The position numbers were made by a program, and so were the translations under genes. A stretch of DNA of 46,542 nucleotides from a virus, in IMG/VR virus record IMGVR_UViG_3300032242_002617, positions 1 to 46,542 of that record, one strand, 5' to 3'. Below the pieces are notes generated by a model that was given only the letters and a program-made list of their open reading frames with translations, was not told where the DNA came from and did not search any database. This document shows, one piece after another, positions 1,968-21,636 of the stretch; within the stretch, counting starts at the first letter, position 1; every line of letters starts with the position of its first letter.

Positions 1968-2042
1968 TCCGCGATAGCTCAACGGTAGAGCTTTCGACTG
2001 TTAATCGAACGGGTCCTGGTTCGATTCCTAGCACAGGTGCCA
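1968..2042 (+). tRNA. degenerate tRNA-Asn-like gene (anticodon GTT)
   Basis: The 5' two-thirds is canonical: TCCGCGA, then TA, a D-arm GCTC/GAGC, and an anticodon arm TTCGA/TCGAA around CTGTTAA, giving GTT at 2000-2002. The T-loop TTCGATT is present. The T-stem (CCTGG against CCTAG) and the acceptor (TCCGCGA against CACAGGT) are largely unpaired, though CCA is encoded at 2040-2042. The 3' end looks swapped or mutated, so charging is doubtful. Confidence 0.5.
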
Positions 2043-2061: not shown

Positions 2062-2838
2062 ATGAAGGCATACATCCTATACATTGAGCAGGGTGACTCG
2101 AAGAAGTACGCCCTCGAGACACTGAAGTCCTGCAAGGAGAACGGCATCGACGGCGAGCTGTTCGAGGGTGTCAAGGGACTGCAGAACACCGACATCACGA
2201 GGATCTACGGGTACACCATGGGTCGTCCCGGTGCGCCCGACGGTGATGCCCAGTACTGGCGTGAGTTCTGCTGCTCGCTCGGGCACATGATGATCTGGCA
2301 GAGGATCGTCGAGAAGAACGAGCCCGCGATGATCCTCGAGCACGACGCGATCGTCAAGGCTGGGGTAAATGGAATTGAGCAGCACCTGGTCGACGACGCC
2401 ATCTACTGGCTCGGACCGCGCGTCCTGAAGAGGACCGACTACGAGTACCCTAAGGCACTGCCGCTTCGCTTCGCGGACGTATCGAAGTTCGAGGGAACGC
2501 ACGCGTACATCATCACGCCAAGGACAGCACGCAAGATGCTCGGCGGGATCTACGTAACCAACCACATACTGATGAACGTCGACGGGCTGATGGGTGTGAA
2601 CAACATGTTCAAGCTGAGGATGCTCGTCGCGGACCCACCGCTTGCGATCGCCGAGGTAGGCGACAGGAACACCTACGCACAGGCACCTGAGAAGGGCAAC
2701 GCTCATACGAACTGGGAGTACTTCCCGGGATTCCTAAAGGGTCTCCAGCCCGGCGTGGTGCCCTTCACGAGCACCAAGGAGGAGCTCGCGAAGTCGCAGA
2801 GTAAGAACGACATGTACAACTTCATGTACAAGACGTAG
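2062..2838 (+). CDS. glycosyltransferase family 25-like protein
   Basis: This 258-residue protein looks like a GT25 (LPS glycosyltransferase) enzyme. It opens with YILYIEQGDSKK and has the donor/metal motif region PAMILEHDAIVK at about residues 98-109, where GT25 enzymes usually have E-D-D. Later comes THAYIITPRTARKML, typical of the family. It would transfer a hexose from a nucleotide sugar. The acceptor could be surface glycan, or less likely DNA. The start is the ATG at 2062, six bases after AAGGAG, rather than the in-frame GTG at 2056. The His in place of the first acidic residue of the DxD-like motif is unusual. Confidence 0.75.
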   Translation: MKAYILYIEQGDSKKYALETLKSCKENGIDGELFEGVKGLQNTDITRIYGYTMGRPGAPDGDAQYWREFCCSLGHMMIWQRIVEKNEPAMILEHDAIVKAGVNGIEQHLVDDAIYWLGPRVLKRTDYEYPKALPLRFADVSKFEGTHAYIITPRTARKMLGGIYVTNHILMNVDGLMGVNNMFKLRMLVADPPLAIAEVGDRNTYAQAPEKGNAHTNWEYFPGFLKGLQPGVVPFTSTKEELAKSQSKNDMYNFMYKT

Positions 2839-2846
2839 TGATTTGA

Positions 2847-2921
2847 GCGGGTGTAACTCAGTGGTAGAGTTCCTGCCTTCCAAGCAGGATGTCGAGGGTT
2901 CGAATCCCTTCGCCCGCTCCA
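2847..2921 (+). tRNA. tRNA-Gly (anticodon TCC)
   Basis: The acceptor GCGGGTG pairs with CGCCCGC. The anticodon stem CCTGC/GCAGG surrounds CTTCCAA, with TCC at 2879-2881, which reads GGA/GGG. The T-loop TTCGAAT is canonical and CCA is encoded. All arms pair well, in contrast to the two degenerate genes upstream. Only three bases separate it from the end of the convergent endolysin gene. Confidence 0.95.
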
Positions 2922-2924
2922 ACA

Positions 2925-3425
2925 TCAAGCCTCGTTCAAGGAGAGAGGTCCCGCGTACTCCTGAACGATAGGTCCGGTAAAGTCATGGGCTGCCTCACTC
3001 GGCCAGCGGATCGAGTGAAGGCGGTTCTTACCCACTCGGGTAATGTCGACCATGTCCGACTGATTGCCTCCGAGGATGTGGTACGCCTCATCGTCCTCAC
3101 CTACGTAGAACCCGACGTGCCCGCCTCCGTTCCTCGTGAAGACCATGACCGCGCCGTACGACGGGTGGTTGAGACCGACACCCCATTGCGAGTACTCGAG
3201 AGCGCTGAGTGGATTTCCAGGTATCCTCATCTGGTTCTCAGTCAAGCAGTGTGCCACGAACAGGCCGCACCACGGGATGTCGTCGGTCGTGTAGTACTTC
3301 GCGACGAAGCCGCCGATCATCTTCGCCCACTCGACGATCTCGGGGTTGCTCCCCTTGCCGGAAACTTCCTTGGTGCCGATGAGCTCCTTTGCGGACTCCA
3401 TCCACGCGAGTGTAGGTAGTGCCAT
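2925..3425 (-). CDS. CHAP/NlpC-like peptidoglycan hydrolase (endolysin)
   Basis: This 166-residue protein resembles the TIGR02594/CHAP-type amidase-endopeptidase family used by phages for lysis. It has a catalytic-type Cys at about residue 53 in DDIPWCGLFVAHCL, a His at about 103 in GGGHVGFYVGED, and a polar residue at about 121 in ILGGNQSD. There is no signal peptide, so release would need a holin; none is recognised here. The start is MALPTL, since its ATG has AGGAG eight bases upstream; an in-frame ATG 11 codons earlier lacks one. It is the only minus-strand gene in the first 12.9 kb and is flanked by convergent and divergent plus-strand genes. Confidence 0.82.
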   Translation of the reverse strand: MALPTLAWMESAKELIGTKEVSGKGSNPEIVEWAKMIGGFVAKYYTTDDIPWCGLFVAHCLTENQMRIPGNPLSALEYSQWGVGLNHPSYGAVMVFTRNGGGHVGFYVGEDDEAYHILGGNQSDMVDITRVGKNRLHSIRWPSEAAHDFTGPIVQEYAGPLSLNEA

Positions 3426-3443: not shown

Positions 3444-3472
3444 TTGACATTTATTCAAGATCTATATATAAT
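3444..3472 (+). promoter_or_regulatory. consensus sigma70 promoter of the sugar-modification operon
   Basis: TTGACA at 3444-3449, a 17-base spacer, TATAAT at 3467-3472: a perfect consensus pair. It sits between the divergent endolysin gene and the 3508 methyltransferase. It is the evident start of the coupled plus-strand operon running to about 8694. Confidence 0.88.
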
Positions 3473-3507: not shown

Positions 3508-4242
3508 ATGGGTGTGGACCTCGCGTCGCTTAACTTTCTAGTATCACACAAAGAGTACGTCAGGGGAAATACCCTGCAGCTCGGCAGGCAAGGCCTCCAC
3601 TACGCAGGACCTTGGGCGGATCGTACCGGAAACAAGGTTCGGATCAGCAACGAGATCCTCAAGAGGAACGGCATCCCGTTCAGTGCCGAGGACACGGTAA
3701 TCGGCGGAGACGGTCATACCGAGAAGCTGTTCCTCATGCTCGGTGCGGATACGGTCGACACTCTGGACTACTCGCGCTACGAGAACTGCACGATCGTCCA
3801 CGACATGAACCTTCCGATACACGAGTCCTTTCACGGCAAGTTCGACTTCATCTTCGACTCAGGTACGATCGAGCACATCTACGACGTCAAGACTGTCGTC
3901 GAGAACATCAAGTCGATGCTCAAGATCGGCGGTGTGGTATCGATCACGACGGTGTGCAACAACTTCGTCGGTCACGGGTTCTACCAGTTCAGCCCTGAGT
4001 TCTTCCGCACCCTGTTCTCGCAGGAGGCTGGCTTCAACATCATCGACATCTGCATGCACGAGCTGACGAGCGACGAGTCGTTCACGGTCCACAGCCTGTC
4101 GGATCCTAGGTTCGGTGATCGCCAGGAGATGAGGACTCGCGACAACCCTCACTACGTCTGCTTCATCGCGCAGAAGGTCGGCGAGTCGAGCAAGAAGAAC
4201 TACCAGCAGAGCGACTACCTCAAGGCCTGGGGTGAGATCTAA
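3508..4242 (+). CDS. class I SAM-dependent methyltransferase-like protein
   Basis: This 244-residue protein has the class-I methyltransferase layout. The strand/loop region VIGGDGHTEKLFLMLGADTVDTLDYS stands in for motif I and the acidic ribose-binding position. KFDFIFDSGTIEHIYDV at about residues 113-129 is the motif IV/post-IV region, and MLKIGGVVSITT follows. Motif I is poorly conserved, so SAM binding is likely but not certain. The gene is first after the perfect promoter at 3444 and overlaps the next gene as TAATG. Its position in a glycosyltransferase run suggests methylation of a sugar or sugar-linked group. Confidence 0.7.
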   Translation: MGVDLASLNFLVSHKEYVRGNTLQLGRQGLHYAGPWADRTGNKVRISNEILKRNGIPFSAEDTVIGGDGHTEKLFLMLGADTVDTLDYSRYENCTIVHDMNLPIHESFHGKFDFIFDSGTIEHIYDVKTVVENIKSMLKIGGVVSITTVCNNFVGHGFYQFSPEFFRTLFSQEAGFNIIDICMHELTSDESFTVHSLSDPRFGDRQEMRTRDNPHYVCFIAQKVGESSKKNYQQSDYLKAWGEI

Positions 4243-5000
4243 TGAAGAAGAGTCTGATCTTTACGTCGGTCGGCATCCCGATCGCGTTTCACCCTGAGGC
4301 ATACGATCCCGAGAACCACTGGCGCTTCACTAAGCCCGAGCGACTCTACGAGACGATAGCCTACAGGTACAACGACATCGAGGTCGAGCCTGATACATAC
4401 GACCACATCAGCCCGAGCAACACGGGCTTCAAGTGGCAGATAGCCCACAAGTTCCTGAACGAGTTCGACCTGTCTGACTACGAGTACGTCGGGTTCCTCG
4501 ACGACGACCTGATCTCCGACATCGACAACGTCAACAGGTCGATCAAGCTCGCCTACGACAAAAGGGTAAAGATCTTCCAGCTCTCGACGCTCAAGGGATC
4601 GGAAAGCTCGCACGGCATCCTTCACCAGAGGGACGACCTCGAGTACTCGATCACTAACTTCGTCGAGGGCATGTCCGTGTTCGTTCACACCTCGTGCATA
4701 CCCACGCTGCTCGAGTTGTGGAAGCTGCACGACTTCAAGAGCGGCTACGGCTTCGACGTCATCCTGACGAAGGTTCTCAGGGAGAAGGCAATGGTCGTCC
4801 ACTCCGCGTCGGTGTACCACCCTCCGGCTTCCTTCGAGGGCTACAAGCCGAGCTACTACAAGGTCGAGGAGGCCAACCGCGAGATGCATCACATCTTCCA
4901 GTGGGTCTACCCGACCTTCATGATGAATCACTACAAGGAGTTCGTACTACCGCTGAGCGGGATACAGTACGTAGTTTATGAAGAGGTAAAGCGAGCATGA
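4242..5000 (+). CDS. DUF707/GT-A-type glycosyltransferase
   Basis: In this 252-residue protein the key element is EYVGFLDDDLISDI at about residues 81-94, an acidic D-D-D cluster used by GT-A enzymes to hold the metal and nucleotide sugar. The surrounding pattern, including NFVEGMSVFVHTSC, resembles DUF707 proteins. The start overlaps the preceding methyltransferase stop (TAATG), and its end overlaps the next ATG (ATGA), so all three are coupled. It probably glycosylates the same unknown acceptor as its neighbours. There is no signal peptide, so it is cytoplasmic. Confidence 0.65.
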   Translation: MKKSLIFTSVGIPIAFHPEAYDPENHWRFTKPERLYETIAYRYNDIEVEPDTYDHISPSNTGFKWQIAHKFLNEFDLSDYEYVGFLDDDLISDIDNVNRSIKLAYDKRVKIFQLSTLKGSESSHGILHQRDDLEYSITNFVEGMSVFVHTSCIPTLLELWKLHDFKSGYGFDVILTKVLREKAMVVHSASVYHPPASFEGYKPSYYKVEEANREMHHIFQWVYPTFMMNHYKEFVLPLSGIQYVVYEEVKRA

Positions 5001-5593
5001 CTGACAAGAACTTATACCCGTGGTTGATCTCCGAGCTGGTCGACCTCGGTGTCTGGGACATCAAGAAGTACTTCTCGGCTCCGGGACTGATACCCGTAGT
5101 CGCAGGTCTCTCGACAGGTACCGACCGCATAAAGGGTCTCGAGATCGGAGTGGCGAGCGGTTGGAACATGTTCAACTTCCTCACGAACATCCACGATCTA
5201 GAGCTCACGGGCGTCGACCCGTACATCCCGTTTCAGGACTGGAACGGATACGTCGGCGACGACATCCTGAGTGCGCAGTGCGAGGCGGCGAAGCTTAACG
5301 TAGCGCAGTTCGGCGACAGGGCGACCATCATCAAGGACAGGTGCGAGAACATCGTCGACAACTACGACGACGGCCACTTCGACTACATCTTCGTCGACGG
5401 CGATCACTCCGAGGAGGCGGTCTATCGCGACTGCAAGAACTTCTACAGCAAGGTCAGGAAGGGCGGTGTCTTCTCAGGTCACGACTTCGACCTGCCTGCA
5501 GTTAATGCAGGGCTAAATAAGTTCAGGTCGGAGGGTAGCTACCCGCAGATCACTCGATGTGTCGACAACGCTTGGTATTGGATTAAAGAATGA
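4997..5593 (+). CDS. class I SAM-dependent methyltransferase (Methyltransf_24-like)
   Basis: This 198-residue protein has motif I GLEIGVASGWNMFNF, motif II LTGVDPYIPF, and HFDYIFVDGDHSEEAVYRDC as the motif IV region. RKGGVFSGHDFDLPAV follows. The D-G-D-H and G-H-D-x-D elements are typical of the Methyltransf_24 group, often sugar O-methyltransferases in polysaccharide clusters. It overlaps both neighbours by four bases. A second gene of the same group lies at 8113, suggesting duplication or two methylated positions on one product. Confidence 0.8.
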   Translation: MTDKNLYPWLISELVDLGVWDIKKYFSAPGLIPVVAGLSTGTDRIKGLEIGVASGWNMFNFLTNIHDLELTGVDPYIPFQDWNGYVGDDILSAQCEAAKLNVAQFGDRATIIKDRCENIVDNYDDGHFDYIFVDGDHSEEAVYRDCKNFYSKVRKGGVFSGHDFDLPAVNAGLNKFRSEGSYPQITRCVDNAWYWIKE

Positions 5594-6381
5594 GCTCACA
5601 AGGATATGTCCTAATTGCAGTAGGTCAGAGATACATAGATGAGGTCGCGTGCTTAATCAGTACTCTGAGAAAGCAGAATGATCTCAGACCTATAACAGTT
5701 ATAATTGATCCCGACGACGTAGGTTATTTTGTTGAAAAAAATACCGGAGCTTCATATACTGAGCTGAGAGATGTCAACGGTAACTTTGATCTCTTTCTGA
5801 CGGATTTTGAGAGAAAAGGCACGTACCCTAAGGTAAGTTTGTTTGACTTTACGGTATATGACGAGACTATTTTTCTTGACTCAGACGTCCTGTGTCAGTA
5901 CGACACGAGTAAGGTCTGGAACTTCATGGGTACTCAGCCGCAGCACATCGCCATGGTCGGTAAGAAGTACGATCCTCACTGGGCCGCCGGTGAAATTGAA
6001 AGTGTGATACAAAAAATTGGCAAGCACATCTCTCACACTCACGGCGGCTTTGTCTACTTCAGAAAACCACAGGCAAAGCTGATGTACGACTACTTCGTCG
6101 AGACCGTAGTCAACTATAACAGATGGTGTGGTCAACGACACTATAAGAACTCTATGCCGGATGAGATGCTGTACGCGATGGTGTTTTCTAAGTTCGACTA
6201 CTGGCCGCTGGAATTTGATGAGTTTCCCATCATGACGTTTAACGCCGATCCAGACGGCGAATTTCCATCTAAATTGCAGACAAACATCGGTAAAGAGTTA
6301 GACGACTTTATTCCATTCATACATATGTACAACAGAAGTTCTCATGGAAGAGTCTATAATATGATCATGGAAAAGGAATAA
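5590..6381 (+). CDS. GT8/glycogenin-like glycosyltransferase
   Basis: This 263-residue protein begins with a Rossmann-like GT-A strand (YVLIAVGQRYIDEVACLIST). The metal-binding motif ETIFLDSDVLC is at about residues 92-102 (D97-S-D99), as in glycogenin/GT8 enzymes. HTHGGFVYFRK and the late FIPFIHMYN fit the family's C-terminal half. Codon use in the first 300 bases is markedly more A/T-rich than in its neighbours, suggesting replacement or recent acquisition. It is coupled to the preceding methyltransferase through ATGA. Donor and acceptor are unknown. Confidence 0.75.
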   Translation: MSSQGYVLIAVGQRYIDEVACLISTLRKQNDLRPITVIIDPDDVGYFVEKNTGASYTELRDVNGNFDLFLTDFERKGTYPKVSLFDFTVYDETIFLDSDVLCQYDTSKVWNFMGTQPQHIAMVGKKYDPHWAAGEIESVIQKIGKHISHTHGGFVYFRKPQAKLMYDYFVETVVNYNRWCGQRHYKNSMPDEMLYAMVFSKFDYWPLEFDEFPIMTFNADPDGEFPSKLQTNIGKELDDFIPFIHMYNRSSHGRVYNMIMEKE

Positions 6382-6382
6382 G

Positions 6383-7486
6383 ATGACTACGGTAATTCTT
6401 GATAACACCAAAGATAAAGTCCAAGGCAGGACATATACCAGCAACCACGTCAAGCTCCTTAAGCACATGGATCGCCTCTCGATCATTCAGAAGGGCGGTC
6501 GTCCCAAGCCGGTGATGTTCCACATGTCACCCTGCAACCCCTGCAACCTGACCTGCTCCTTCTGCTGCTTTGCAAACCGCAACCTCAAGGAGATGCTCAC
6601 CAAGGAGCAGATGATCAAGGCGGTCGACCAGTTCGCCGAGCTTGGCGTCCTCGGCATGGAGTTCACGGGAGGCGGCGAGCCTACCCTGCACCCCGACCTC
6701 GACTTCATGATCGAGTATATCCACAACAAGGGCATCAAGATCGGCATCGTCACGAACGGATCGCGCCTCCGCAAGGTCAAGAACTGGCACATGGTGTCGT
6801 GGGTTCGCCTAGGCATGTACGGCTTCGACGAAGGCTACGAGTACGACCTCTCGGTGTTCGACAACTGCCCTGACGTCGCGATCTCTGCTGCATACGTCTG
6901 GGACGGTGCGCTCGAGACGTCTAACAACCCGAACGTCACGGGCGAGTGGGCTGACCCATCGAACGCTACAGGCAAGAAGATGCTCGCCAAGGCGCACTAC
7001 AAGGAGGAGAACTTCTTCCGCATGCTCAAGTGGGTCGAGGAGAAGAAGATCCCCTGCCGCATCGCCTTCAACGCGATCAAGGACCCCACGGAGACCGCAA
7101 AGGACATCGACAAGATCCGCTCGATCCTCAACATCTTCGAGGGTGAGAACGGTCCTCTCAAGTTCGCGTTCCTGTCCGACTTCAACTTCAAGGGAACACG
7201 TCGCAACGACAACTGCTACATGCACATGGTCAAGCCCTGCGTGTTCACCGACGGGAACGTCTACGTCTGCCCGTCCGCCGAGCTTGCCCCCGAGAACGGC
7301 TACCACGTAAACGACGAGTTCAAGGTGTCTGACATCGACGGCATCCTCGACTACTACAACAGTCTCGACTCCGAGGACGTCGGCGTCAAGCGCCGTCATC
7401 ACGCGTGCTCCTTCTGTAAGTACGCATATCAGAACGAGCTGATCGACGACATCGTAACCCAAACTAACCACAACGAGTTCGCATAA
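6383..7486 (+). CDS. radical SAM enzyme
   Basis: This 367-residue protein carries the CxxxCxxC cluster motif at C54, C58 and C61 (CNLTCSFC). FTGGGEPTLHPDL follows, the GGE element that contacts SAM. Extra cysteines at the C-terminus (KPCVFTDGNVYVCPSAE and HHACSFCKYAY) could hold an auxiliary iron-sulfur cluster, as in SPASM/twitch proteins. It would generate a 5'-deoxyadenosyl radical acting on an unknown substrate. The gene sits among glycosyltransferases and methyltransferases and has an AAGGA site before its ATG. Candidate roles are sugar remodelling (dehydration, epimerisation) or modification of a nucleotide or peptide. Confidence 0.88.
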   Translation: MTTVILDNTKDKVQGRTYTSNHVKLLKHMDRLSIIQKGGRPKPVMFHMSPCNPCNLTCSFCCFANRNLKEMLTKEQMIKAVDQFAELGVLGMEFTGGGEPTLHPDLDFMIEYIHNKGIKIGIVTNGSRLRKVKNWHMVSWVRLGMYGFDEGYEYDLSVFDNCPDVAISAAYVWDGALETSNNPNVTGEWADPSNATGKKMLAKAHYKEENFFRMLKWVEEKKIPCRIAFNAIKDPTETAKDIDKIRSILNIFEGENGPLKFAFLSDFNFKGTRRNDNCYMHMVKPCVFTDGNVYVCPSAELAPENGYHVNDEFKVSDIDGILDYYNSLDSEDVGVKRRHHACSFCKYAYQNELIDDIVTQTNHNEFA

Positions 7487-7497
7487 GGAAATATACA

Positions 7498-8109
7498 ATG
7501 AATGTTTTTGATGAGAAGTACTTCGAGGACGGCGTTCGCAACCACATCAGTGCCTATGAGAACTACCGGTGGATGCCCGAGCGCACCATCCGCGAGGCGT
7601 CGTCGATCTGTCGCGAGATCAGCTTCAACAACGTACTCGACTTCGGCTGTGCCAAGGGGTTCATGGTCTATGCCATGCGCCTGCTCGGTAAGGAGGCCCA
7701 CGGCGTCGACATCTCCGACTACGCGGTGAGCAACTGCCAGCCACAGGTCAAGGACTACCTCTCGGTCATCAAGTCGACCGAGGAGATCAAGGGTGGTTGG
7801 GACCTCATCATCGCGAAGGACGTGCTCGAGCACATCAACAAGGAGGACCTGCCCAAGGTCCTCGCGGACTTCCGCGCTCGCACCAAGCAGATCATCATCG
7901 CGGTTCCCCTCGGTGACGGTCGTCGCTTCCGCATTCGCGAGTACGAGATGGACATCACCCATGTCGTGCGCGAGCCCGAGGAGTTCTGGCTTACCGCCCT
8001 CGCCGAGGCCGGCTTCAAGATCAAGTACTTCGACTACACTCTCGGTCACCTCAAGACCAACTGGACAGAGGACCATCCCTACGGCAACGCGTTCATCATC
8101 GGGGAGTAA
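7498..8109 (+). CDS. class I SAM-dependent methyltransferase
   Basis: This 203-residue protein has a clear motif I, NVLDFGCAKGFMVYAMRLLG, then HGVDISDYAV for motif II. WDLIIAKDVLEHINKEDLPKVL is the motif IV region of the UbiE/Methyltransf_11-23 type. It is most like small-molecule or sugar methyltransferases of glycan clusters. There is an AAGGAA site upstream and only 11 bases separate it from the radical SAM gene. The substrate cannot be read from sequence. Conservation of all SAM-binding motifs indicates an active enzyme. Confidence 0.87.
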   Translation: MNVFDEKYFEDGVRNHISAYENYRWMPERTIREASSICREISFNNVLDFGCAKGFMVYAMRLLGKEAHGVDISDYAVSNCQPQVKDYLSVIKSTEEIKGGWDLIIAKDVLEHINKEDLPKVLADFRARTKQIIIAVPLGDGRRFRIREYEMDITHVVREPEEFWLTALAEAGFKIKYFDYTLGHLKTNWTEDHPYGNAFIIGE

Positions 8110-8112
8110 GAC

Positions 8113-8694
8113 ATGGAAGAGCCGTCTAAGTACCATAACATTCCAGGCTTCTTTAACTTCGAGGAGGTCTACAAGAGCATAATCCAGGACCTCGACGACG
8201 ACTCAACGTTCGTCGAGGTCGGAACGTGGTTCGGAAAGTCGATCACATACGCCGTCGAGTCGTCATTGGCTCAAGGCAAGAGGATCAACTTCGTCGCGGT
8301 GGATACGTTCGAGGGATCGCCCGAGGAACCTCTCGTGCAGCCGGACGGTCGAGACATCTACAGGCTGTACCTTGAGAACACCAGGGAGTTCACCAAGTAT
8401 ATTACCACACTGAAGCTCTCGAGCGTCGAGGCCGCGAGGCTGTTCGACGACAAGAGCCTCGACTTCGTCTTCATCGACGGGTCTCACCTCTACGAGAGCG
8501 TAAGGGACGACATCGCCGCCTGGGCTCCTAAGATCAAGAGCGGCGGCATCATCGCCGGTCACGACTACGACACGCCTGAGGACGAGTTCAACGGCGTCAA
8601 GAAGGCGGTCGACGAGGTGTTTGGAGACAACAAGGTTACCGTATACGATCCAGGACACGTATGGGGTAAGAGCTGGATGATAAGGCTCCTATAG
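8113..8694 (+). CDS. class I SAM-dependent methyltransferase (Methyltransf_24-like)
   Basis: This 193-residue protein is related in layout to the 4997 gene. FVEVGTWFGKSITYAV is motif I, NFVAVDTFEG motif II, LDFVFIDGSHLYESVRDDI the D-G-S-H region, and SGGIIAGHDYDTPEDEF the downstream metal-like motif. The family includes glycan O-methyltransferases. It has a GGGAG site upstream. Its last ten bases, including the TAG stop, are also the first ten bases of the tRNA-Thr acceptor region. A transcript must therefore serve both as mRNA and as tRNA precursor. Confidence 0.82.
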   Translation: MEEPSKYHNIPGFFNFEEVYKSIIQDLDDDSTFVEVGTWFGKSITYAVESSLAQGKRINFVAVDTFEGSPEEPLVQPDGRDIYRLYLENTREFTKYITTLKLSSVEAARLFDDKSLDFVFIDGSHLYESVRDDIAAWAPKIKSGGIIAGHDYDTPEDEFNGVKKAVDEVFGDNKVTVYDPGHVWGKSWMIRLL

Positions 8695-9658: not shown

Positions 9659-10291
9659 ATGAAGCATGTTATCGCAGCCTTGGCTGCACTTCTCGTCGCA
9701 ACTTCTGCATACGCAACGGACCTTCCTAAGAAGAAGAAGGCTCCGCTCCCGCCTGTTCAGCAGTTCGTCCAGAAGCAAGTCCCGACGACCACGGTCACAG
9801 CCGAGGTCTCGTCCGAAGGTGACCTCAAGGCGATCAACGACGGCACCTTTGCCTACACCCTCGGTGTCGAGCACAAGGTCGGCTACGGCTTCTTCGTAGC
9901 TGCTCAGGCGCAGCACAAGGAAGGCGACACCGACAACTCGATCGAAGGTTCGGTAGGCTACACCCTCCCGCTTACCTCATCGGTCAGCGTCAAGGCGTCG
10001 GTCGGCACGGGTAAGCACTTCGTCACGGGCGACAACTACGCCTACTACGTGGCTCGTCTCGGAACGGACGTCAAGCTGTCCGATCACCTGACTTGGAACG
10101 CACTGCAGTATCGCTATCGTAACTCATACGATACCGCGTACGACTACGAGTCTCACCAGATCGGTACGGGCCTCACCTACCACTTCAACCAGCAGCACGC
10201 GGTCTTCGCCAAGGTGTTTCGTAACTACGATCATAACTTCAACAACCACGTGGACGACACCGTCCTAGTCGGCTACTCGTTCTCGTTCTGA
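9659..10291 (+). CDS. outer-membrane beta-barrel protein
   Basis: This 210-residue protein has a classical Sec signal peptide (MKHVIAALAALLVATSAYA, cleavage expected after A19). A Lys/Pro-rich linker TDLPKKKKAPLPP follows. The rest alternates hydrophobic and polar residues in about eight strands separated by polar turns, and it ends in the aromatic C-terminus YSFSF. That terminus is the recognition signature for the BAM outer-membrane assembly machinery. The N-terminal style resembles rhizobial Omp25-type porins. An obvious hypothesis is alteration of the host surface during infection, for example superinfection exclusion. The gene has a GGAG site and lies between tRNA-Leu and tRNA-Ser under the promoter at 9515. 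Confidence 0.82.
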   Translation: MKHVIAALAALLVATSAYATDLPKKKKAPLPPVQQFVQKQVPTTTVTAEVSSEGDLKAINDGTFAYTLGVEHKVGYGFFVAAQAQHKEGDTDNSIEGSVGYTLPLTSSVSVKASVGTGKHFVTGDNYAYYVARLGTDVKLSDHLTWNALQYRYRNSYDTAYDYESHQIGTGLTYHFNQQHAVFAKVFRNYDHNFNNHVDDTVLVGYSFSF

Positions 10292-10437: not shown

Positions 10438-11310
10438 ATGGTTGACGTGATTGCAGGTGCGATAAGCGGGTACGACTACGAGCAGGTAAGGCCTTGGCTC
10501 GAGTCCATCCGGCGAACAAACTTTCAAGGCGATGTGATACTGATCTGCTACGAGATCGACGGCTTCACCCTCTCGAAGCTGCGGTCCGAGAAGGTCGGGT
10601 GCATCGAGGTCAAGAAGGTCGACAACATCATGGTCGATCGCTTCCTCCAGGCCTGGAGGTTCCTCAACGACCTTCCAGAGGACGACGTCGTGATATGGAC
10701 TGACGTTCGCGACGTGGTCTTTCAGAAGAACCCGAGCGACTGGATTCACAAGAACATGTTCTTCAAGGACAAGTCGATCATCGTCGGCTCGGAGAACCTG
10801 ACATACGCGGACGAGCCTTGGGGTAGGAACAACCTCCTCGAGTCGTTCGGCGAGCTGCACTTCAACAAGATCATGAACTGGCCGATCAACTGCGCAGGTG
10901 TCATCGCAGGTAAGGCCAAGGTCGTCACGGACCTGTTCTTCGCCTTGTACACTATATGCAAGAACCTGCCCGCGGAGATCCCAGGAGGCGGCGGTCCCGA
11001 TCAGGCGGCACTGAACGTCATGCTCTCGCTCGAGCCGTACCGCAGCATCACGAAGTTCTGCACGACAGACGACGACTGGGTATGTCACCTCGGCACGTCG
11101 ATGGCGGCGATAGAGGCGGGCAGCGGAGGCATCGGTCAGTACTGCAGGATGTACGGTCAGCCAGCCCTCGACTACTTCAGGACCAAGATGATAGGTGCAG
11201 ATCCTAAGCTCGAGGACGGTCTCGTCATCAACCCGCTTACCGGCGCTCCGTACTGCATCGTGCACCAGTACGATCGAGTCCCGTCGTGGAAAGATAAGAT
11301 GTCGAGATGA
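10438..11310 (+). CDS. GT-A-fold glycosyltransferase
   Basis: The ATG at 10438 (MVDVIAGAISGYDYEQ) has GGAG six bases upstream; a longer reading frame into the tRNA is not credible. The 290-residue protein has a Rossmann-like start and a metal-binding acidic motif DVVIWTDVRDVVFQKNP at about residues 83-99 (D89xxD92). A Gly-rich stretch EIPGGGGPDQAAL resembles the acceptor-binding region of nucleotide-diphospho-sugar transferases. The exact CAZy family is uncertain. It begins a second coupled block with the GNAT and ATE-like genes. Confidence 0.7.
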   Translation: MVDVIAGAISGYDYEQVRPWLESIRRTNFQGDVILICYEIDGFTLSKLRSEKVGCIEVKKVDNIMVDRFLQAWRFLNDLPEDDVVIWTDVRDVVFQKNPSDWIHKNMFFKDKSIIVGSENLTYADEPWGRNNLLESFGELHFNKIMNWPINCAGVIAGKAKVVTDLFFALYTICKNLPAEIPGGGGPDQAALNVMLSLEPYRSITKFCTTDDDWVCHLGTSMAAIEAGSGGIGQYCRMYGQPALDYFRTKMIGADPKLEDGLVINPLTGAPYCIVHQYDRVPSWKDKMSR

Positions 11311-11747
11311 CCATAATACTACGGAGGCCTCAGGTCGACGACATCGACGAGATGCTCGTGATCGAGTACTCCAACTTCAGCACGGACTTCATATCGCGGC
11401 AGGAACTTGAGGACAACCTCGAGTCCTGCCGTGTCCTCATCGTGGACAATGAGATCGCTGGCTACTGCCTCTGGTATAATAATTATGATGATATGATAGG
11501 AAATTGCTACCTGTACAGCCTCGTGGTCGATAAATACTATCGGCGTCGAGGATATTCGCGACTTCTCCTAGATCATTTCCTCTCAAATGAGTCTACTATT
11601 CATTCCCTCCACGTCTCAGTCAGCAACAAAACGGCGATTTCACTTTATGAATCGGTCGGGTTCAAGCCTGTCGAGACAGTAGAAAGCTTCTATGAGGACG
11701 GAGGGTCAGCACTGCTGATGCTAAGAAGAAATGAAAACGAAGACTAA
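11307..11747 (+). CDS. GNAT-family N-acetyltransferase
   Basis: This 146-residue protein has the RimI-type layout. YLYSLVVDKYYRRRGYSRLLLDHFL contains the acetyl-CoA pyrophosphate-binding R-R-x-G-x-(S/A) loop at about residues 74-79. VSNKTAISLYESVGFKPV is the C-terminal motif B. It would move an acetyl or larger acyl group from CoA to an amine. It starts in an ATGA overlap with the glycosyltransferase and itself overlaps the next gene by 17 bases. About 200 bases in its middle are A/T-richer than the flanks. An amino sugar is the most natural substrate in this context, but that is inference. Confidence 0.87.
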   Translation: MTIILRRPQVDDIDEMLVIEYSNFSTDFISRQELEDNLESCRVLIVDNEIAGYCLWYNNYDDMIGNCYLYSLVVDKYYRRRGYSRLLLDHFLSNESTIHSLHVSVSNKTAISLYESVGFKPVETVESFYEDGGSALLMLRRNENED

Positions 11748-12417
11748 TCACTTCTTTGGAAGGCAGGACCACTACGACCTCCAGCTCGTCAAGCTCGAGC
11801 TGGATCTCGAGAGCTCGCGCGAGCACGAGGCACTCGACCAAGGCTGGTCGATCTACGACGGCAAGTGGATACAGAGCCGCCTCACGAGGCTTCGCCTCGA
11901 CGCATGGGTTAAGAGCCCTAAGCCACTCAAAGGTCACACAGTGCAGTACGTCCACTCCTTTGTCAAGAGCGATGAGGTCGAGCAGGTGTACGCAAAGTTC
12001 CTGGAGTACAAAGGGTTCAACCCTCACTTCGACCTGTACTGCGACATGGACAGGTCGTCCGTCGTGGAGGTCCGCAAGGACGGGAAGCTCACCGCATTTA
12101 CTAAGTTCGTCGAGTACGACGGTGGGATCGAGAGCCAGTTCACGGTCTGGGACTACGCCGACCCTAAGATGTCGCTCGGCAGGAAGATCGTCGACTTCGA
12201 GATCCAGAACGCCAAGGATCTCGGGTACGACTTCCTCTACATAGGTCCCGGATACGACGACAGCTCGGTCTACAAGTCCAGCTTTCCCGGCTTCGAGTGG
12301 TGGACGGGTAGCGAGTGGAGCACCGATAAGGATAAATACATCGAGCTATGCAAGTCGGATGCGAGTGTCCAGAACCTCGATGATCTTAATGATCTCTTTA
12401 ATGGATTTAAGGAATGA
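11731..12417 (+). CDS. ATE-like (aminoacyl-tRNA-protein transferase) acyltransferase
   Basis: In this 228-residue protein the C-terminal half matches arginyl/leucyl-tRNA-protein transferases. It has FTVWDYADPKMSLGRKIV, then FEIQNAKDLGYDFLYIGPGY, then VYKSSFPGFEWWTGSEW. Known ATE/Bpt proteins show D-P-x-x-x-x-S-L-G, A-x-x-L-G-x-x-Y-L-Y-x-G-Y and Y-K-x-x-F-x-P in this order. The N-terminal Cys-cluster domain of true ATE is not evident. It may therefore transfer an amino acid from charged tRNA to a non-protein acceptor, or be a relic of the fold. It overlaps the GNAT gene. Confidence 0.6.
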   Translation: MKTKTNHFFGRQDHYDLQLVKLELDLESSREHEALDQGWSIYDGKWIQSRLTRLRLDAWVKSPKPLKGHTVQYVHSFVKSDEVEQVYAKFLEYKGFNPHFDLYCDMDRSSVVEVRKDGKLTAFTKFVEYDGGIESQFTVWDYADPKMSLGRKIVDFEIQNAKDLGYDFLYIGPGYDDSSVYKSSFPGFEWWTGSEWSTDKDKYIELCKSDASVQNLDDLNDLFNGFKE

Positions 12418-12938
12418 AGAAAACAAACATCGGCTCCTTTAGAGTCTTCAGGATGGTCAACGATCCTAGATTCAAGAAAGCGATGGATGCGTCCTGTGTC
12501 GTAAACAGGGAGTATGATATTCCATACCTTGCCGGTTACTCAAAGGACAGGAAGACGTTCTACATCGATCGTCACCTCCCTACAAAGTTTCCTGGAGATG
12601 GTAACGTCCTACCTCACCTGCTCATCCACGAGAAGGTCGAGAAGGCTCTCGAGGACATCTTCAAGCTCCGCTATCAGGACGCCCATAAGATCGCCCTGCA
12701 CTTCGAACACGAAGCAGTTACCAAGTCCGGCATCAGCTGGGACAAGTACTCAAGGTTCATGGACAAGTGGATAAAGCTCGACGGGCACGAGAAGCTCACC
12801 AAGGTTCCTAAGGACCTCGACTTAAAACCCTACGAGGACGAGCGCGATAACAGGCTGCTGTTCAAGTTGAGGAAGATGGAGCACATCTCCAACATCGCGA
12901 GAGACCATGAAATCATAAAGAACAAAGGCGGCCACTAG
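12414..12938 (+). CDS. hypothetical protein with HExxE-like motif, 174 aa
   Basis: It starts in an ATGA overlap with the ATE-like gene. The centre reads LPHLLIHEKVEKALEDIFKL, then YQDAHKIALHFEHEAV, giving several His and Glu residues spaced as in metal-binding helices (H-E-x-x-E, H-x-E-H-E). The pattern recalls uncharacterised proteins of alphaproteobacteria and their phages. Peptidase or hydrolase function would be a guess. The last codons form one arm of the terminator hairpin at 12924-12948. Confidence 0.55.
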   Translation: MKKTNIGSFRVFRMVNDPRFKKAMDASCVVNREYDIPYLAGYSKDRKTFYIDRHLPTKFPGDGNVLPHLLIHEKVEKALEDIFKLRYQDAHKIALHFEHEAVTKSGISWDKYSRFMDKWIKLDGHEKLTKVPKDLDLKPYEDERDNRLLFKLRKMEHISNIARDHEIIKNKGGH

Positions 12939-12948
12939 GACCGCCTTT
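12924..12948. terminator. bidirectional terminator hairpin
   Basis: AAAGGCGG (12924-12931) pairs with CCGCCTTT (12941-12948) around a 9-base loop that includes the TAG stop of the plus-strand gene. The T-rich run is better on the minus strand (TTTGTTCTTT), so it mainly ends the SLT lysozyme transcript. It separates the convergent early and late units. Confidence 0.72.
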
Positions 12949-12951
12949 GAG

Positions 12952-13446
12952 CTATGCTTTCATATTGTGAAACACCAGTCTACAGTAGGACGAGGTCTTC
13001 TTGACCCTACCCGAGTTGTAGAACGTGGAAGCGCTGCACAGATCCCCGTTAGCCATCTTTATTCCGTGGCTAAGATAGCGCATGCTATACTCTAGATTTG
13101 TCTCAGGATCGAGCAACTCACTGCACTTCCCTTTGAAACCAACATCCCTTGCAGTACTGCAAAAGATCTGACCTAATCCGTACTCGCCTGCCGCTCCTCT
13201 GAGCTTAGGGTTGAAGTCGGACTCCGTCTTGATCACGGCCTGCGCGAATTTCTCAGGCACACCGTGTTCTACCGCCTTTCTCGATACCATCTGCTCTATA
13301 GTAACTCGCGTGTGGACCGCGGGCACTACCTGCATGACCTCCGAGGGTTTGCTCGGTTGGGTCTCGGCCGGGGAGCCGTAGACCGTGGTCACTTGAGCAG
13401 ACGAGACCGATAGCAACGCAGCGGCTGCAATTGCCGTAAGTCTCAT
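12952..13446 (-). CDS. secreted SLT-type lytic transglycosylase
   Basis: This 164-residue protein has a cleavable Sec signal (MRLTAIAAAALLSVSSA) and an SLT/goose-lysozyme domain. The catalytic Glu is at about residue 85 in AVIKTESDFNPKLRG, followed by GEYGLGQIFCSTA and NLEYSMRYLSHGI. These are the ES, GLMQ-like and AYNSG-like landmarks (here FYNSG). It would cut glycan strands in the periplasm. The start has AAGGAG nearby, and a perfect late promoter TATAAATA lies at 13520-13527. With the CHAP-type endolysin at 2925 the phage has two different wall hydrolases, one exported. Confidence 0.88.
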   Translation of the reverse strand: MRLTAIAAAALLSVSSAQVTTVYGSPAETQPSKPSEVMQVVPAVHTRVTIEQMVSRKAVEHGVPEKFAQAVIKTESDFNPKLRGAAGEYGLGQIFCSTARDVGFKGKCSELLDPETNLEYSMRYLSHGIKMANGDLCSASTFYNSGRVKKTSSYCRLVFHNMKA

Positions 13447-13519
13447 TTGTTCTCCTTAGTGATGGGGTACGGGTTCTATCCGCACCTTACCTCACGCCAA
13501 AGGATACAGCGTGAATGGA

Positions 13520-13527
13520 TATTTATA
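13520..13527 (-). promoter_or_regulatory. T4-type late promoter (TATAAATA)
   Basis: The minus-strand sequence is exactly TATAAATA, the T4 late consensus recognised by gp55, which this phage encodes at 28713. It lies 73 bases upstream of the SLT lysozyme start and overlaps the stop codon of the preceding gene. Confidence 0.82.
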
Positions 13528-13876
13528 GAGGCTCTTCTTCGGCCTCTACGCGATCCTCGATCCCTACGGAGTCGAGGGTGTTATCGACGACGAAGTACTG
13601 GACATCGGCATCGAGCTCGGAGTCAGCGTCGAGCAACTTACGTGCCTCGATGAGCTGAGTAATAACCTTGCGAATTGTGTTGTGTACGATCTCGTCGTTG
13701 TCACCGTTAACGAGGTCTGCAAGTGCACCCTCTAGGTTCCAGTCAGGAGAGAAGTCGACGTGTATCTTTGCGCCGTTCTTCTCGACGATCTTTGGAGGCG
13801 GGAACAGTATCTCCTTAAGCTTCTCGAGCTTCGCCGCTTCCTTGCCTTTATCTTTCTTTCTCATAATCTTGAACAT
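13523..13876 (-). CDS. conserved T4-like phage hypothetical protein, 117 aa
   Basis: The protein begins with a very basic stretch (MRKKDKGKEAAKLEKLKE). It then has VDFSPDWNLEGALADL and a helical segment TIRKVITQLIEARKLLDAD, and ends acidic. I recognise this general pattern from cyanophage genomes near regA/62, but no function is known. The start is uncertain: the ATG at 13876 would fall at the predicted transcription start of the promoter at 13882-13910, so the ATG at 13864 (MRKKDKG) may be used. Neither has a good Shine-Dalgarno sequence, so it may be a near-leaderless mRNA. Confidence 0.65.
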   Translation of the reverse strand: MFKIMRKKDKGKEAAKLEKLKEILFPPPKIVEKNGAKIHVDFSPDWNLEGALADLVNGDNDEIVHNTIRKVITQLIEARKLLDADSELDADVQYFVVDNTLDSVGIEDRVEAEEEPL

Positions 13877-13881
13877 GATAT

Positions 13882-13910
13882 ACTATATCAAACCTCTCAC
13901 CATTTGTCAA
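13882..13910 (-). promoter_or_regulatory. sigma70-type promoter
   Basis: Minus strand: TTGACA (13910-13905), 17-base spacer, TATAGT (13887-13882). The -35 lies within codons for Ile-Asp-Lys at the end of the 13897 gene. It fires into the 13523 gene with almost no leader. Confidence 0.78.
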
Positions 13911-14103
13911 TAGGACATTTTGAATCTTTTAGGTATGTCTTGGCTCTCATGAAGCACCCGCAGTGCCTGCAGGTATCGAGGGCGTTGAGGTCAGGGCACT
14001 GCTTGCAGGTACTGAACCTTATCTCCCTCTCCTCGTCGTCGACTCGATCGACTAGGTTCTTGACGAAGTTCGCCACGGCTGTGGCGAGACCGTCCTCGTT
14101 CAT
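13897..14103 (-). CDS. small zinc-finger-like protein, 68 aa
   Basis: It contains FSTCKQCPDL, then DTCRHCGCFM, and near the end SKCPIDKW. The C-x-x-C, C-x-x-C-G-C and C-P set could hold one or two zinc ions. Small proteins with this arrangement are common next to regA and clamp-loader genes in T4-like phages. The function is unknown; nucleic-acid or RNA polymerase binding would be typical for such a finger. The ATG overlaps the regA stop (ATGA), placing it in the clamp-loader operon. Confidence 0.68.
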   Translation of the reverse strand: MNEDGLATAVANFVKNLVDRVDDEEREIRFSTCKQCPDLNALDTCRHCGCFMRAKTYLKDSKCPIDKW

Positions 14104-14501
14104 ACCTTCTTCCTACCGATGTTGTACTTGGCAACGAGCTCCCACTCACCCTTCTCCTTGTGGGCGATGATCTTTACCTGACTCATCGGCGCACGGGGAT
14201 GGGCTGCCTTGTCCTCGTCGAGGATCTTGACCAGACCCCACTGCTCGAGCAGGGCTGCGATCGTGTTCCTACGGCCTTTGTCCTCGTCGGAGAAGCTGTA
14301 GGGCTTTCCATCGAGGGCGAAGAGCTCCTTGAAGTGAACGATGTAGTACCTTCCCTGCTTGTGAAGGATGTGGCACGATTGGTAGAGCTTCCTCTCCTTG
14401 CGAGATGCCACTCCGATCCGGGTCAAGGTCTCCTTGATCTTAAGGAAGTCCTCTTCCTCTCCGATCCTGACCTCAATCAAGGAATCTACTATTGAGCTCA
14501 T
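14100..14501 (-). CDS. regA: RegA translational repressor
   Basis: This 133-residue protein aligns throughout with T4 RegA. It has FLKIKETLTRIGVASRKER, then KLYQSCHILHKQGRYYIVHF, then DKGRRNTIAALLEQWGLVKI, and a C-terminal WELVAKYNIG. T4 RegA binds start regions of early mRNAs and blocks ribosomes, including mRNAs for the clamp and clamp loader. It lies in the same order as T4 (45-44-62-regA). Its ATG overlaps the stop of gene 62. Near-complete conservation of the core block leaves little doubt. Confidence 0.95.
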   Translation of the reverse strand: MSSIVDSLIEVRIGEEEDFLKIKETLTRIGVASRKERKLYQSCHILHKQGRYYIVHFKELFALDGKPYSFSDEDKGRRNTIAALLEQWGLVKILDEDKAAHPRAPMSQVKIIAHKEKGEWELVAKYNIGRKKV

Positions 14502-14875
14502 TTAATGCCACCTTTTTCTGTTCTTTTTCTTATAGCATCGAGCTGTTCTTTGGTAAGGATACTGAGAGCTGTCTCAGTATCTCGCACATTATACCCGTAG
14601 TGGTCCTGAACCAAAGAAAAATCCCGATCCCGCTGTGGTTTTGACCACTTTGAGAATCTTTTCCCTTTTCTAATGGTATTTATAAGGTAGTCGAACTGAA
14701 GACGGCCTTCCAGATGGGGATTCAGGTTCATCTCCTGAGCCCACATGATGCAGTCCACGTAGTACGAGAGACCCCTGTTTACCATGAAGGAGGGGTACGC
14801 CTTCTCACTTACCTCGTCGGTGAGGAGGTCCTCCTTGGTCTGGGTGATGGCTCCGATTACTTCAAATGGGTTCAC
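14498..14875 (-). CDS. 62: gp62 clamp-loader small subunit
   Basis: The true start is a GTG at 14875 that overlaps the gene 44 stop (GTGA), giving 125 residues beginning NPFEVIGAITQTKEDLL after the initiator. A much longer in-frame ORF upstream is only the shadow of gene 44. LSYYVDCIMWAQEMN and FDYLINTIRKGKRFSKW match the cyanophage-type short gp62. With gp44 it loads the gp45 clamp at primer-template junctions. Codon use drifts A/T-rich toward its 3' end. Confidence 0.85.
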   Translation of the reverse strand: MNPFEVIGAITQTKEDLLTDEVSEKAYPSFMVNRGLSYYVDCIMWAQEMNLNPHLEGRLQFDYLINTIRKGKRFSKWSKPQRDRDFSLVQDHYGYNVRDTETALSILTKEQLDAIRKRTEKGGIK

Positions 14876-17508: not shown

Positions 17509-17996
17509 TAGATAGTCTCCTTATTGACAATGTCGTGAACGTAGAGTTGCATCATCGCGTAGTGAATGACCTTCAATAGGTCCTTGCGCCAGTCCTCGCG
17601 CGATCCCTTGCGGCCGTATCGCTGGGCGTACTTGAGTACGTTGCCCATGCAGAACCCCGTGCCGTGGCCTGAGTCCATGATGAACTCGGTAGCCTGAAAC
17701 TTATTTCTTGAGTAGTGTTCTGAGTATGTAGAGTTAATATAATCCGTAATCTCTTTAATGTACACCCCTTCGTTGTACTTATAGCTGATTTTTTTCTCAG
17801 CAAAGCTCCGCTGCTTATAGTACTCGTCGTGAGGAATCCACTTGCCGTCTACTAAAATGGATCCGTGGCGGCCTCCACCACCACTACCACCTCCACCACC
17901 GCGAAGTTCGATCTTGGTGTTTGGATCAATTGTCCAGCTATTAGTATACCTCACGTTGATGCCTTCTGACACCTTACCTTCATTGTTCAAAGCCAT
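17508..17996 (-). CDS. DUF3310 protein with glycine-rich linker
   Basis: In this 162-residue protein the C-terminal half (FQATEFIMDSGHGTGFCMGNVLKYAQRYG, then WRKDLLKVIHYAMMQLY) matches the DUF3310 nucleotide-kinase-like family. That family is widespread in phages and often sits in nucleotide-metabolism or DNA-modification clusters. The N-terminal half contains RGGGGGSGGGGR, a flexible hinge separating a Thr/Asn-rich arm. Its start overlaps the methyltransferase 3' end by 10 bases. The 5' part (17700-17960) is lower in GC than its surroundings. Substrate unknown. Confidence 0.72.
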   Translation of the reverse strand: MALNNEGKVSEGINVRYTNSWTIDPNTKIELRGGGGGSGGGGRHGSILVDGKWIPHDEYYKQRSFAEKKISYKYNEGVYIKEITDYINSTYSEHYSRNKFQATEFIMDSGHGTGFCMGNVLKYAQRYGRKGSREDWRKDLLKVIHYAMMQLYVHDIVNKETI

Positions 17997-19174
17997 GATG
18001 TAATATCTCCTCCACTTCTTGACTCAACGTCCACGCTCTTTGATATGTTGCTCTGCAGGACGTAGTCGGCATCGACCTCGTCCAGCTCACCCTCAAGCCA
18101 CTTCTTGATCTCACCTGCCATGTCCTTCGCCGTGAGGACGGGAACGTTCTGACAGATGTGGTTGGTGCTCTTCTTTGCGTCGAGCAGCTCGAAGTTGTCG
18201 GGCAGGCCCATGATCGTCATGGCCTCCCTATAGTTTATATAGCGATCCTCGACGGGATGGGTCAGCATGTAAGGGTAGTGACCTACGAACGCCCCGATGT
18301 GATCTTTAGGGATGATGGTCATCCTGCGCATGATGTTCTTACCGGAGGTTAGCTTGGTATGACGGTACTCGCACTTGGCGATCTCCTTCTCGAAGCCGTG
18401 CTCTCGCATCCAGTCACCTACCTGCACGTAGTTGTAGCCCATCTTCTCGATGTAGGACTGCGTGTCGTTCTCACGAACCTTGGCCGCTCCCGCCTGCTCG
18501 ACGTACTCGCGATGGCTGATGCCTCCGTGAATGTGCTCGAGGATGAAGCGGTAGTAAGGATCGTGCGACGGTGTCTTATGATTTATAACTTCCCGCTGGC
18601 TGTTGCCCTTGGCACCGAGGATGACGTCCTCGATCTTAGCGTGAGGGCGGTTGAAGTAGTTGAAGACGGGAACCTTGTCGCCTTGCCAGAAGAAGTAGAA
18701 CGAGCGGTCTCGAACCTGAGGACCGCCGTGAAGGATCGTCCTAGTTCTATATACCGACATCGTGTAGCCGTTGTCCTTACCGATCTTCTTGAGCTGGTTG
18801 CGAACGGTCGCACCGATCTTACCGGCAAATCCTGGGGCGTTCTCACCCCAGAACACCTTAGGCCTGAGCTCGCCGAGGACGTAGTTCGCCGTCTCGATCA
18901 TCCACTTGTTGTTCTCGTTGTGATCACCAAATCCGTGCGACAACTGAGACAGACCCGCACACGGGCATACGGTTCCTATCACGTCTACCTTTGTATCAGG
19001 TTTCTCACCTTTGTCAAGGAGGTAGTAAGGGACGTCTCCGTAGTGATTGACGATGTGTCGATCGTTACCTTGAAACGCACTGTAGGAGACGAGGTACTCA
19101 GGTCGAGTACCAAACGCGAGCTCTTGCCCGAGTGTCTCGCCTCCGATGAGTGGAACTATTGTGCCGTGCTTCAT
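17987..19174 (-). CDS. C5-cytosine DNA methyltransferase family protein
   Basis: In this 395-residue protein the motifs appear in the right order. Motif I is diverged (VPLIGGETLGQELAFG, residues 7-22). Motif IV has CPCAGLS with Cys72 as the likely nucleophile (Q of PCQ replaced by A), motif VI ENAPGF (111-116), and motif VIII PQVRDRSFYFF (152-162). The variable target-recognition region spans about 170-330. Motif IX is NYREAMTIMGLPDNF and motif X QNVPVLTAKDMAGEI. It should flip out and modify cytosine in DNA. Translationally coupled (ATGA) to the alpha-glucosyltransferase homologue. Acting on or beside already modified cytosines would be unusual. Confidence 0.85.
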   Translation of the reverse strand: MKHGTIVPLIGGETLGQELAFGTRPEYLVSYSAFQGNDRHIVNHYGDVPYYLLDKGEKPDTKVDVIGTVCPCAGLSQLSHGFGDHNENNKWMIETANYVLGELRPKVFWGENAPGFAGKIGATVRNQLKKIGKDNGYTMSVYRTRTILHGGPQVRDRSFYFFWQGDKVPVFNYFNRPHAKIEDVILGAKGNSQREVINHKTPSHDPYYRFILEHIHGGISHREYVEQAGAAKVRENDTQSYIEKMGYNYVQVGDWMREHGFEKEIAKCEYRHTKLTSGKNIMRRMTIIPKDHIGAFVGHYPYMLTHPVEDRYINYREAMTIMGLPDNFELLDAKKSTNHICQNVPVLTAKDMAGEIKKWLEGELDEVDADYVLQSNISKSVDVESRSGGDITSWL

Positions 19175-21287: not shown

Positions 21288-21636
21288 ACTTACCACACTC
21301 CTGAAGCATCTTCAATTCATAGTCTTTGTCGTTTAGTTTTCTATTTAGCCCAGAAGGATGCGGCAGGGTGAAGTGGTCTACAGATAATTTTCTCAGGACG
21401 GCGGACGGGAAGTTGCCTAGTGCGATCACCTTGTCGTGCTGCTCGGAGTACTCCTTGACCATATCGTATCGAACGTCCTTCATCCGGTACTTTCCAGGAA
21501 CGCCGATGCAGTTGATAAAGGTGTGATCCTTAACGCCCATGAACTCGAGCCACTTGGGCAGGCGACGGTGTGTCGTGCAGTTCGGCTTGAGCACCCAGTC
21601 GGAAGGGTTGATACCAATGACGAGAACCTTAGACAA
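21274..21636 (-). CDS. uracil-DNA-glycosylase-superfamily protein
   Basis: Read from a TTG at 21636 the product is 120 residues beginning SKVLVIGINPSDW after the initiator, with HPSGLNR near residues 93-99. G-I-N-P-(G/S) and H-P-S-x-L-N are the two active-site motifs of the Mug/family-4-like UDG superfamily. The protein is shorter than classical UDGs. It could excise deaminated or unmodified bases, or be a catalytically altered relative acting in base modification. The start is uncertain: the frame extends to 21666, but the shorter start gives a normal family N-terminus. Confidence 0.68.
   Translation of the reverse strand: MSKVLVIGINPSDWVLKPNCTTHRRLPKWLEFMGVKDHTFINCIGVPGKYRMKDVRYDMVKEYSEQHDKVIALGNFPSAVLRKLSVDHFTLPHPSGLNRKLNDKDYELKMLQECGKYVAA

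Follow-up and report, generated by a model that had tools for sequence, protein, structure and literature searches.

The stretch of viral DNA analysed here (IMG/VR record IMGVR_UViG_3300032242_002617, 46,542 nucleotides (nt), below called the window) carries, at positions 3508-8694, an operon of seven genes that includes a radical S-adenosylmethionine (SAM) enzyme and, directly after it, the class-I methyltransferase MT3. We found that these two genes form the invariant core of a module that recurs in viral loci, and that the product of the seven-gene set is very probably a sugar chain, assembled and then chemically modified by its enzymes. Judging from sequence comparison, we put the probability that the operon serves early glycan tailoring of a host envelope polysaccharide at roughly 55%.

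All seven open reading frames (ORFs) lie on the plus strand, intact and uninterrupted, in the order MT1, GTa, MT2, GTb, radical SAM, MT3, MT4, as a previous sequence-only reading of this DNA had described. Its assignment of two GT-A enzymes, four class-I methyltransferases and a radical SAM protein with auxiliary cysteines also stands, on the basis of family matches, a structural model of GTa and an alignment of 37 sequences. The operon genes, together with two further glycosyltransferase genes nearby, are as follows.

2062..2838 (+): GT25 glycosyltransferase (PF01755 E=3.4e-12); near the module in close relatives too
3508..4242 (+): MT1, class-I methyltransferase (Methyltransf_23, PF13489 E=2.6e-6); the nearest relatives carry orthologues
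4242..5000 (+): GTa, GT-A-fold glycosyltransferase with an invariant DDD motif (D87-D89); AlphaFold2 pLDDT 91, Foldseek matches to GT-A enzymes
4997..5593 (+): MT2, class-I methyltransferase (Methyltransf_24, E=1.7e-15); optional, present in some relatives' loci
5590..6381 (+): GTb, GT8-like glycosyltransferase; relatives may lack it
6383..7486 (+): Twitch-type radical SAM enzyme, as predicted from its cysteines (PF04055 E=5e-15)
7498..8109 (+): MT3, class-I methyltransferase (Methyltransf_23); obligate radical SAM partner by linkage counts and alignment
8113..8694 (+): MT4, class-I methyltransferase (Methyltransf_24, TylF-like, E=5.3e-19); often present in the close clade
10438..11310 (+): GTc, glycosyltransferase-like; inside the module in relatives, here displaced downstream

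The junctions had been read as mostly ATGA/TAATG overlaps. This is the case at three of the six (TAATG, 1 nt, between MT1 and GTa; ATGA, 4 nt each, between GTa and MT2 and between MT2 and GTb), while the other three are tightly spaced gaps of 1, 11 and 3 nt. Family searches gave GTa a weak DUF707 match and nothing else, its GT-A assignment coming from the AlphaFold2 model, and a tblastn search against isolated phages returned no match to it. The Glyco_transf_8 match of GTb (3.7e-5) falls slightly below the cut-off; the protein matches phrog_1903 at 2.5e-40, and its relatives sit in sugar clusters of Synechococcus phage ACG-2014f.

The radical SAM-MT3 pair in viral loci

A nucleotide search of the operon region against 50,697 phage records gave zero matches. 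At the protein level, a search with the radical SAM enzyme yielded 64 viral loci and an alignment-based scan 121 candidate stretches; after near-identical radical SAM genes were collapsed, 94 distinct genes were examined. MT3 was found within 2.2 kb downstream of the radical SAM gene in 64/64 testable cases, directly adjacent in 58 of them. In the reciprocal direction, a radical SAM gene lay upstream of all 69 testable MT3 genes, the scan having kept the best 80 of 290 MT3 matches, with weaker homologues outside the test. The part of the module that never varies consists of two genes, radical SAM and then MT3. The proposal that these genes make up a small biosynthetic pathway is strengthened by the conservation of the gene set as a module, and the search for the same neighbourhood in other phages, suggested alongside it, was successful.

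Around this core, gene content depends on relatedness. Where radical SAM identity is at least 65%, 43/44 testable loci have GTa and GTc alongside the pair, with GTc upstream of the radical SAM gene, and all 32 testable GTa genes have a radical SAM gene downstream. In the close clade, the genes usually run GTc-GTa-radical SAM-MT3-(MT4), and MT2, GTb or an epimerase, for example, may be inserted; NDP-sugar epimerases are found in close relatives' clusters. GTa is present in 0/27 of the most divergent loci, which often have GT11, GT17, DUF3431, DegT aminotransferase or carbamoyltransferase genes instead. Besides viral contigs, one isolate, cyanophage SynMITS9220M01, carries a radical SAM relative. 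A search of 23 related contigs for psbA gave no match above the family cut-off, and the relatives are therefore not evidently cyanophages.

The loci that carry the module span 28 to 54% GC. The window itself has a GC content of 54%, compared with about 35% in its closest relatives, and the operon matches the window average, so it is not a fresh import from a low-GC source. GC at third codon positions of the radical SAM gene is 84.5% in the window vs 32% in the related contig L002, yet the two proteins are still 86% identical. Since synonymous sites between the two genes are saturated, only the low non-synonymous difference (0.10) was used, and by this measure the radical SAM gene is under strong purifying selection. 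Purifying selection and the 100% linkage of the core partly answer the refuting condition set in the sequence-only reading, that of unexpressed or unrelated genes. Between L002 and a further contig, L005, the radical SAM enzyme and MT3 are 95% and 97% identical, while GTa and MT4 are 56% and 68% identical; the core is therefore fixed and the glycosyltransferases are exchanged.

Three observations concern genes beside the module in other loci. Directly upstream of it in L002 (5311-7004), an IMPDH/GMP-reductase-like gene lies next to a Vut_1 (queuosine-precursor-transporter-type) gene, hinting at 7-deazaguanine chemistry there. In contig L009, positions 11914-14742 encode a protein of ~940 amino acids that combines a cytidylyltransferase-like stretch at its N terminus with a zeta-toxin/AAA_33-type kinase domain, and whose family (27 members) is found downstream of the module in many loci. 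The same contig has, at 2093-3208, a gene for a DruA (Druantia)-like protein, seen in 16 loci between a DnaB-like helicase gene and the module.

Motifs and family of the radical SAM enzyme

The enzyme scores 56 bits against PF04055 (cut-off 29.5), which places it in the radical SAM superfamily, and the CX3CX2C motif of the radical SAM cluster (C54/C58/C61) is invariant in 37 sequences. Equally invariant are auxiliary cysteines arranged as C278-X12-G291-X4-C296 ... C342-X2-C345. The first half of the SPASM consensus reads CX9-15GX4C-gap-CX2C (PMC6231123), while none of the 37 sequences has further conserved cysteines after C345 that would correspond to the second half (CX5CX3C-gap-C). The enzyme is thus assigned, from its cysteine pattern, to the Twitch subclass (truncated SPASM), with one predicted auxiliary cluster and enough cysteines for its full ligation. 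In BtrN, a carbohydrate dehydrogenase, the Twitch cluster is fully ligated by four cysteines (PMC9012708, PMC6231123).

None of the named NCBIfam radical SAM families (MoaA, PqqE, viperin, sactipeptide maturases and others) reaches its curated cut-off. The best rows cover the core domain only, MoaA scoring 49 bits vs 325 and prokaryotic viperin 46 vs 180; a viperin identity was rejected on that score. The AlphaFold2 model (pLDDT 70.7) likewise points to no single nearest enzyme, the SPASM/Twitch fold being generic.

Among the cellular genomes searched, with two strict peptide patterns that distant cellular relatives could escape, there was one full-length match, on a 9.5-kb contig (L069, 1-9456) of a Saprospiraceae metagenome-assembled genome. 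Compared with SynMITS9220M01, identity is 87% for its radical SAM enzyme and 80% for its MT3, and the contig is therefore probably viral sequence in the bin. A plasmid search with the radical SAM protein gave core-domain matches only (at most 36% of the query among the matches listed). These included radical SAM genes of a Brachyspira hyodysenteriae plasmid that also has rhamnose and lipooligosaccharide genes, an analogy and not a relative. Within what could be searched, the family thus appears nearly restricted to viruses.

Promoters and genomic setting

The promoter sites on which the reading of expression timing is based are the following.

3444..3472 (+): sigma-70-type promoter TTGACA-N17-TATAAT, 12/12 match, 36 nt 5' of the MT1 ATG
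46440, 42789, 34373, about 14677-14684, 13520 (-): TATAAATA sites

The perfect consensus promoter claimed for the operon is borne out (12/12 positions, 17-nt spacer), and MT1 has the ribosome site GGAGGAG. Exact TTGACA-17-TATAAT sites number three in the window (+3444, -31221 and -25401), vs 0.005 per window in Markov simulations, and there are six further sites with 11/12 matches; strong sigma-70-like promoters are therefore a trait of this phage. The site at 25401 (-) falls within coding sequence, and another consensus-like site was noted at 429 (+).

TATAAATA is the late promoter of T4, and the reading of timing follows established T4 biology. Exact copies occur five times in the window, vs 0.2 expected, all on the minus strand. 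They lie 34 nt 5' of the neck gene, 38 nt 5' of the scaffold gene, 53 nt 5' of the sheath gene and 81 nt 5' of a lytic-transglycosylase-like gene, with the fifth at 14684. No such site was found near the operon or anywhere on the plus strand of the window. This distribution of motifs suggests that the operon is transcribed early, not late.

The window derives from a T4-like myovirus: it encodes the major capsid protein Gp23, a T4-type portal, sheath, large terminase, neck (45679-46413, at the far end of the contig), tail sheath stabiliser, clamp loader, clamp and UvsW. Gp23 is 61-68% identical to its best matches, with Stenotrophomonas phage DLP6 at the top, followed by Sinorhizobium and aquatic T4-like phages. 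The operon adjoins tRNA genes, and those for Gly (2847), Thr (8685), Leu (9557) and Ser (10297), called by ARAGORN, bracket it. A tRNA-Asn(GTT)-like element at 1969-2041 (+) was seen by eye and is not in the ARAGORN list. Other neighbouring features are given below.

9659-10291 (+): beta-barrel outer-membrane-like protein with an apparent signal peptide; 37-40% conserved in relatives
11307-12417 (+): GNAT acetyltransferase gene overlapping an arginyl-tRNA-protein transferase (ATE_C)-like gene; pair also in the related contigs L006/L007
17987-21296 (-): C5-cytosine methylase-like protein, AGT-type DNA alpha-glucosyltransferase (E=3.5e-30) and NAD-dependent epimerase, coupled

The beta-barrel protein is a possible second surface-altering gene product, and the GNAT/ATE_C-like pair might modify protein N-termini. 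The sequence-only reading had counted the GT25, GTc and GNAT/ATE-like genes into the pathway. GT25 is likely a member and GTc belongs to the module in relatives, whereas inclusion of the GNAT/ATE-like genes is weak, because they occur near the module in just one other lineage (L006/L007) and are not adjacent to it there. The coding content of the island at 17987-21296 suggests a sugar placed on cytosine and made with a dedicated NDP-sugar.

Proposed function and comparison with known systems

We infer the reaction, substrate, timing, envelope target and exclusion purpose of the pathway as follows. The soluble GT-A glycosyltransferases GTa, GTb, GTc and GT25 would work on the cytoplasmic side, attaching sugars to the precursor of a host envelope glycan. 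The Twitch radical SAM enzyme would take hydrogen from one sugar, its four-cysteine auxiliary Fe-S cluster probably supporting a BtrN-type two-electron oxidation (or an epimerisation or dehydration). MT3 would then methylate the radical SAM product, and MT1, MT2 and MT4 would add more methyl caps. The altered surface polysaccharide may block adsorption of competing phages and of released progeny to the infected cell (receptor masking, co-infection exclusion). An envelope glycan is favoured because heptose, carbamoyltransferase and NDP-sugar genes accompany the pair in related clusters. In SynMITS9220M01, these are a heptose pathway (kinase, isomerase, nucleotidyltransferase-like protein and epimerase) and a carbamoyltransferase, along with GT25; beside the remote pair of Pelagibacter phage HTVC008M, they are a carbamoyltransferase and a UDP-glucose/GDP-mannose dehydrogenase. 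A bolder version, which we advance tentatively and consider somewhat improbable, is that the virus-exclusive pair makes a sugar modification unknown in hosts, while exchangeable glycosyltransferases set its placement. In that case, the infected cell's surface would be remodelled by a viral chemistry that is new.

Several points weigh against tailoring of the host envelope. GTc and GT25 lie outside the operon's transcription unit in the window, and membrane glycan proteins such as a flippase or a polymerase are missing from the operon. Early expression is read from motifs alone. The C-terminal part of the radical SAM model is of low confidence, and its structure matches are generic, with DesII, SuiB, PqqE and MoaA falling within about one unit of each other (Z 16-17). 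The fold therefore names no substrate, and peptide or nucleotide substrates could fit it too.

The lack of export genes, together with enzymes that all look soluble, would suit glycosylation and methylation of tail-fibre or capsid proteins of the phage's own particles, with altered adsorption or particle shielding as the outcome. Consistent with such a role, glycosyltransferases lie near a tail fibre gene in ACG-2014f, and in related phages the host recognition cluster has them among its tail-fibre genes (PMC7029224). We nevertheless consider virion decoration unlikely, since the operon has no TATAAATA nearby while minus-strand structural and lysis genes are preceded by it, and since the heptose and NDP-sugar genes of related clusters are typical of envelope polysaccharide. 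The chance that the pair matures a peptide or makes a small secreted molecule (like a ribosomally synthesised and post-translationally modified peptide, or like a cofactor), which the glycosyltransferases then glycosylate, appears slim. SPASM/Twitch enzymes do often act on peptides, and the structural matches include SuiB, PqqE and SkfB, but the conserved partners are sugar genes. Moreover, no conserved short gene lies beside the pair among the called ORFs, those below 70 codons being uncalled and a short precursor peptide not searched for.

Elaboration of a sugar on the phage DNA, placed there by the phage's own AGT-type glucosyltransferase, had been offered next to host-surface sugars as a target. 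Of these two, host-surface sugars fit best, and we hold the DNA-linked sugar to be very improbable. The window does encode the C5-cytosine methylase-like protein, the AGT-type enzyme (E=3.5e-30) and an epimerase, but this island is on the other strand at a distance of 9 kb, has its own epimerase and looks self-contained. A co-occurrence search confined to the AGT family, with other DNA glycosyltransferase families not searched and the window's AGT as a positive control, found none in 22 related radical SAM-bearing records. Most of these are fragments, but they include the complete SynMITS9220M01 genome and a contig of 110 kb whose operon is close to this one.

Tailoring of the host envelope would, if true, help to explain how large aquatic phages exclude competitors from the infected cell. 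Phage glycosyltransferase clusters are common and their sugars mostly unknown. The strictly conserved pair, a two-gene core in a fast-changing cluster, offers a concrete entry point, whose product can be made and identified.

Conversion of O-antigen by temperate phages is established, and surface-glycan change blocks other phages (PMC11436027). The outcome proposed here resembles that of P22 gtrABC-type operons in being a phage-encoded surface-glycan change. The operon differs in belonging to a T4-like phage and in having methyl and radical SAM tailoring; none of its proteins matches the Pfam families of the GtrA flippase or the bactoprenol glucosyltransferase GtrB, which sets it apart from gtrABC operons, where these two go with a variable GtrC. 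BtrN (2-deoxy-scyllo-inosamine dehydrogenase) is a Twitch enzyme with four auxiliary cysteines and a carbohydrate-like substrate. The likeness extends to cysteine pattern and general fold only: BtrN was not found by the radical SAM sequence search, and its structural Z of 13.8 is below those of DesII and SuiB.

Closer parallels come from aquatic phages. In the gp210-212 region of SynMITS9220M01, annotated as a hypothetical protein and a methyltransferase, the radical SAM enzyme (56.5% identical) and MT3 (49%) are adjacent and followed by GT25, but the heptose/carbamoyl/epimerase cluster there is far larger and lacks relatives of GTa, GTc and MT1. In HTVC008M (AGE60492-AGE60494), a remote radical SAM homologue that aligns over its full length (HHalign 99%) has an MT3 homologue (41%) directly behind it, but the radical SAM identity is 20-22%, the protein has an N-terminal extension, and a carbamoyltransferase comes next. 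T4-like pelagi- and cyanomyophages are reported to carry glycosyltransferase clusters with "radical SAM" cassettes, proposed to modify the host O-chain and to prevent co-infection (PMC7029224). Thus, the statement that no such phage pathway had been described does not hold. These clusters share with the operon the T4-like aquatic setting, radical SAM cassettes, glycosyltransferases and sugar-synthesis genes, but lie between VrlC and gp14, whereas the operon lies in a tRNA-rich accessory region. The window is a fragment, VrlC was not among the genes sought in it, and no tail-fibre gene was recognised in the surroundings of the operon, whose location does not mark it as a host recognition cluster. 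The passages of that account that were consulted contain no description of an obligate radical SAM-MT3 pair, and we found no described radical SAM and methyltransferase phage module in the open-access literature. Surface-glycan glycosyltransferase clusters are thus already known in T4-like aquatic phages, and the operon resembles them in outline, while the obligate radical SAM-MT3 pair appears to be a new, undescribed element.

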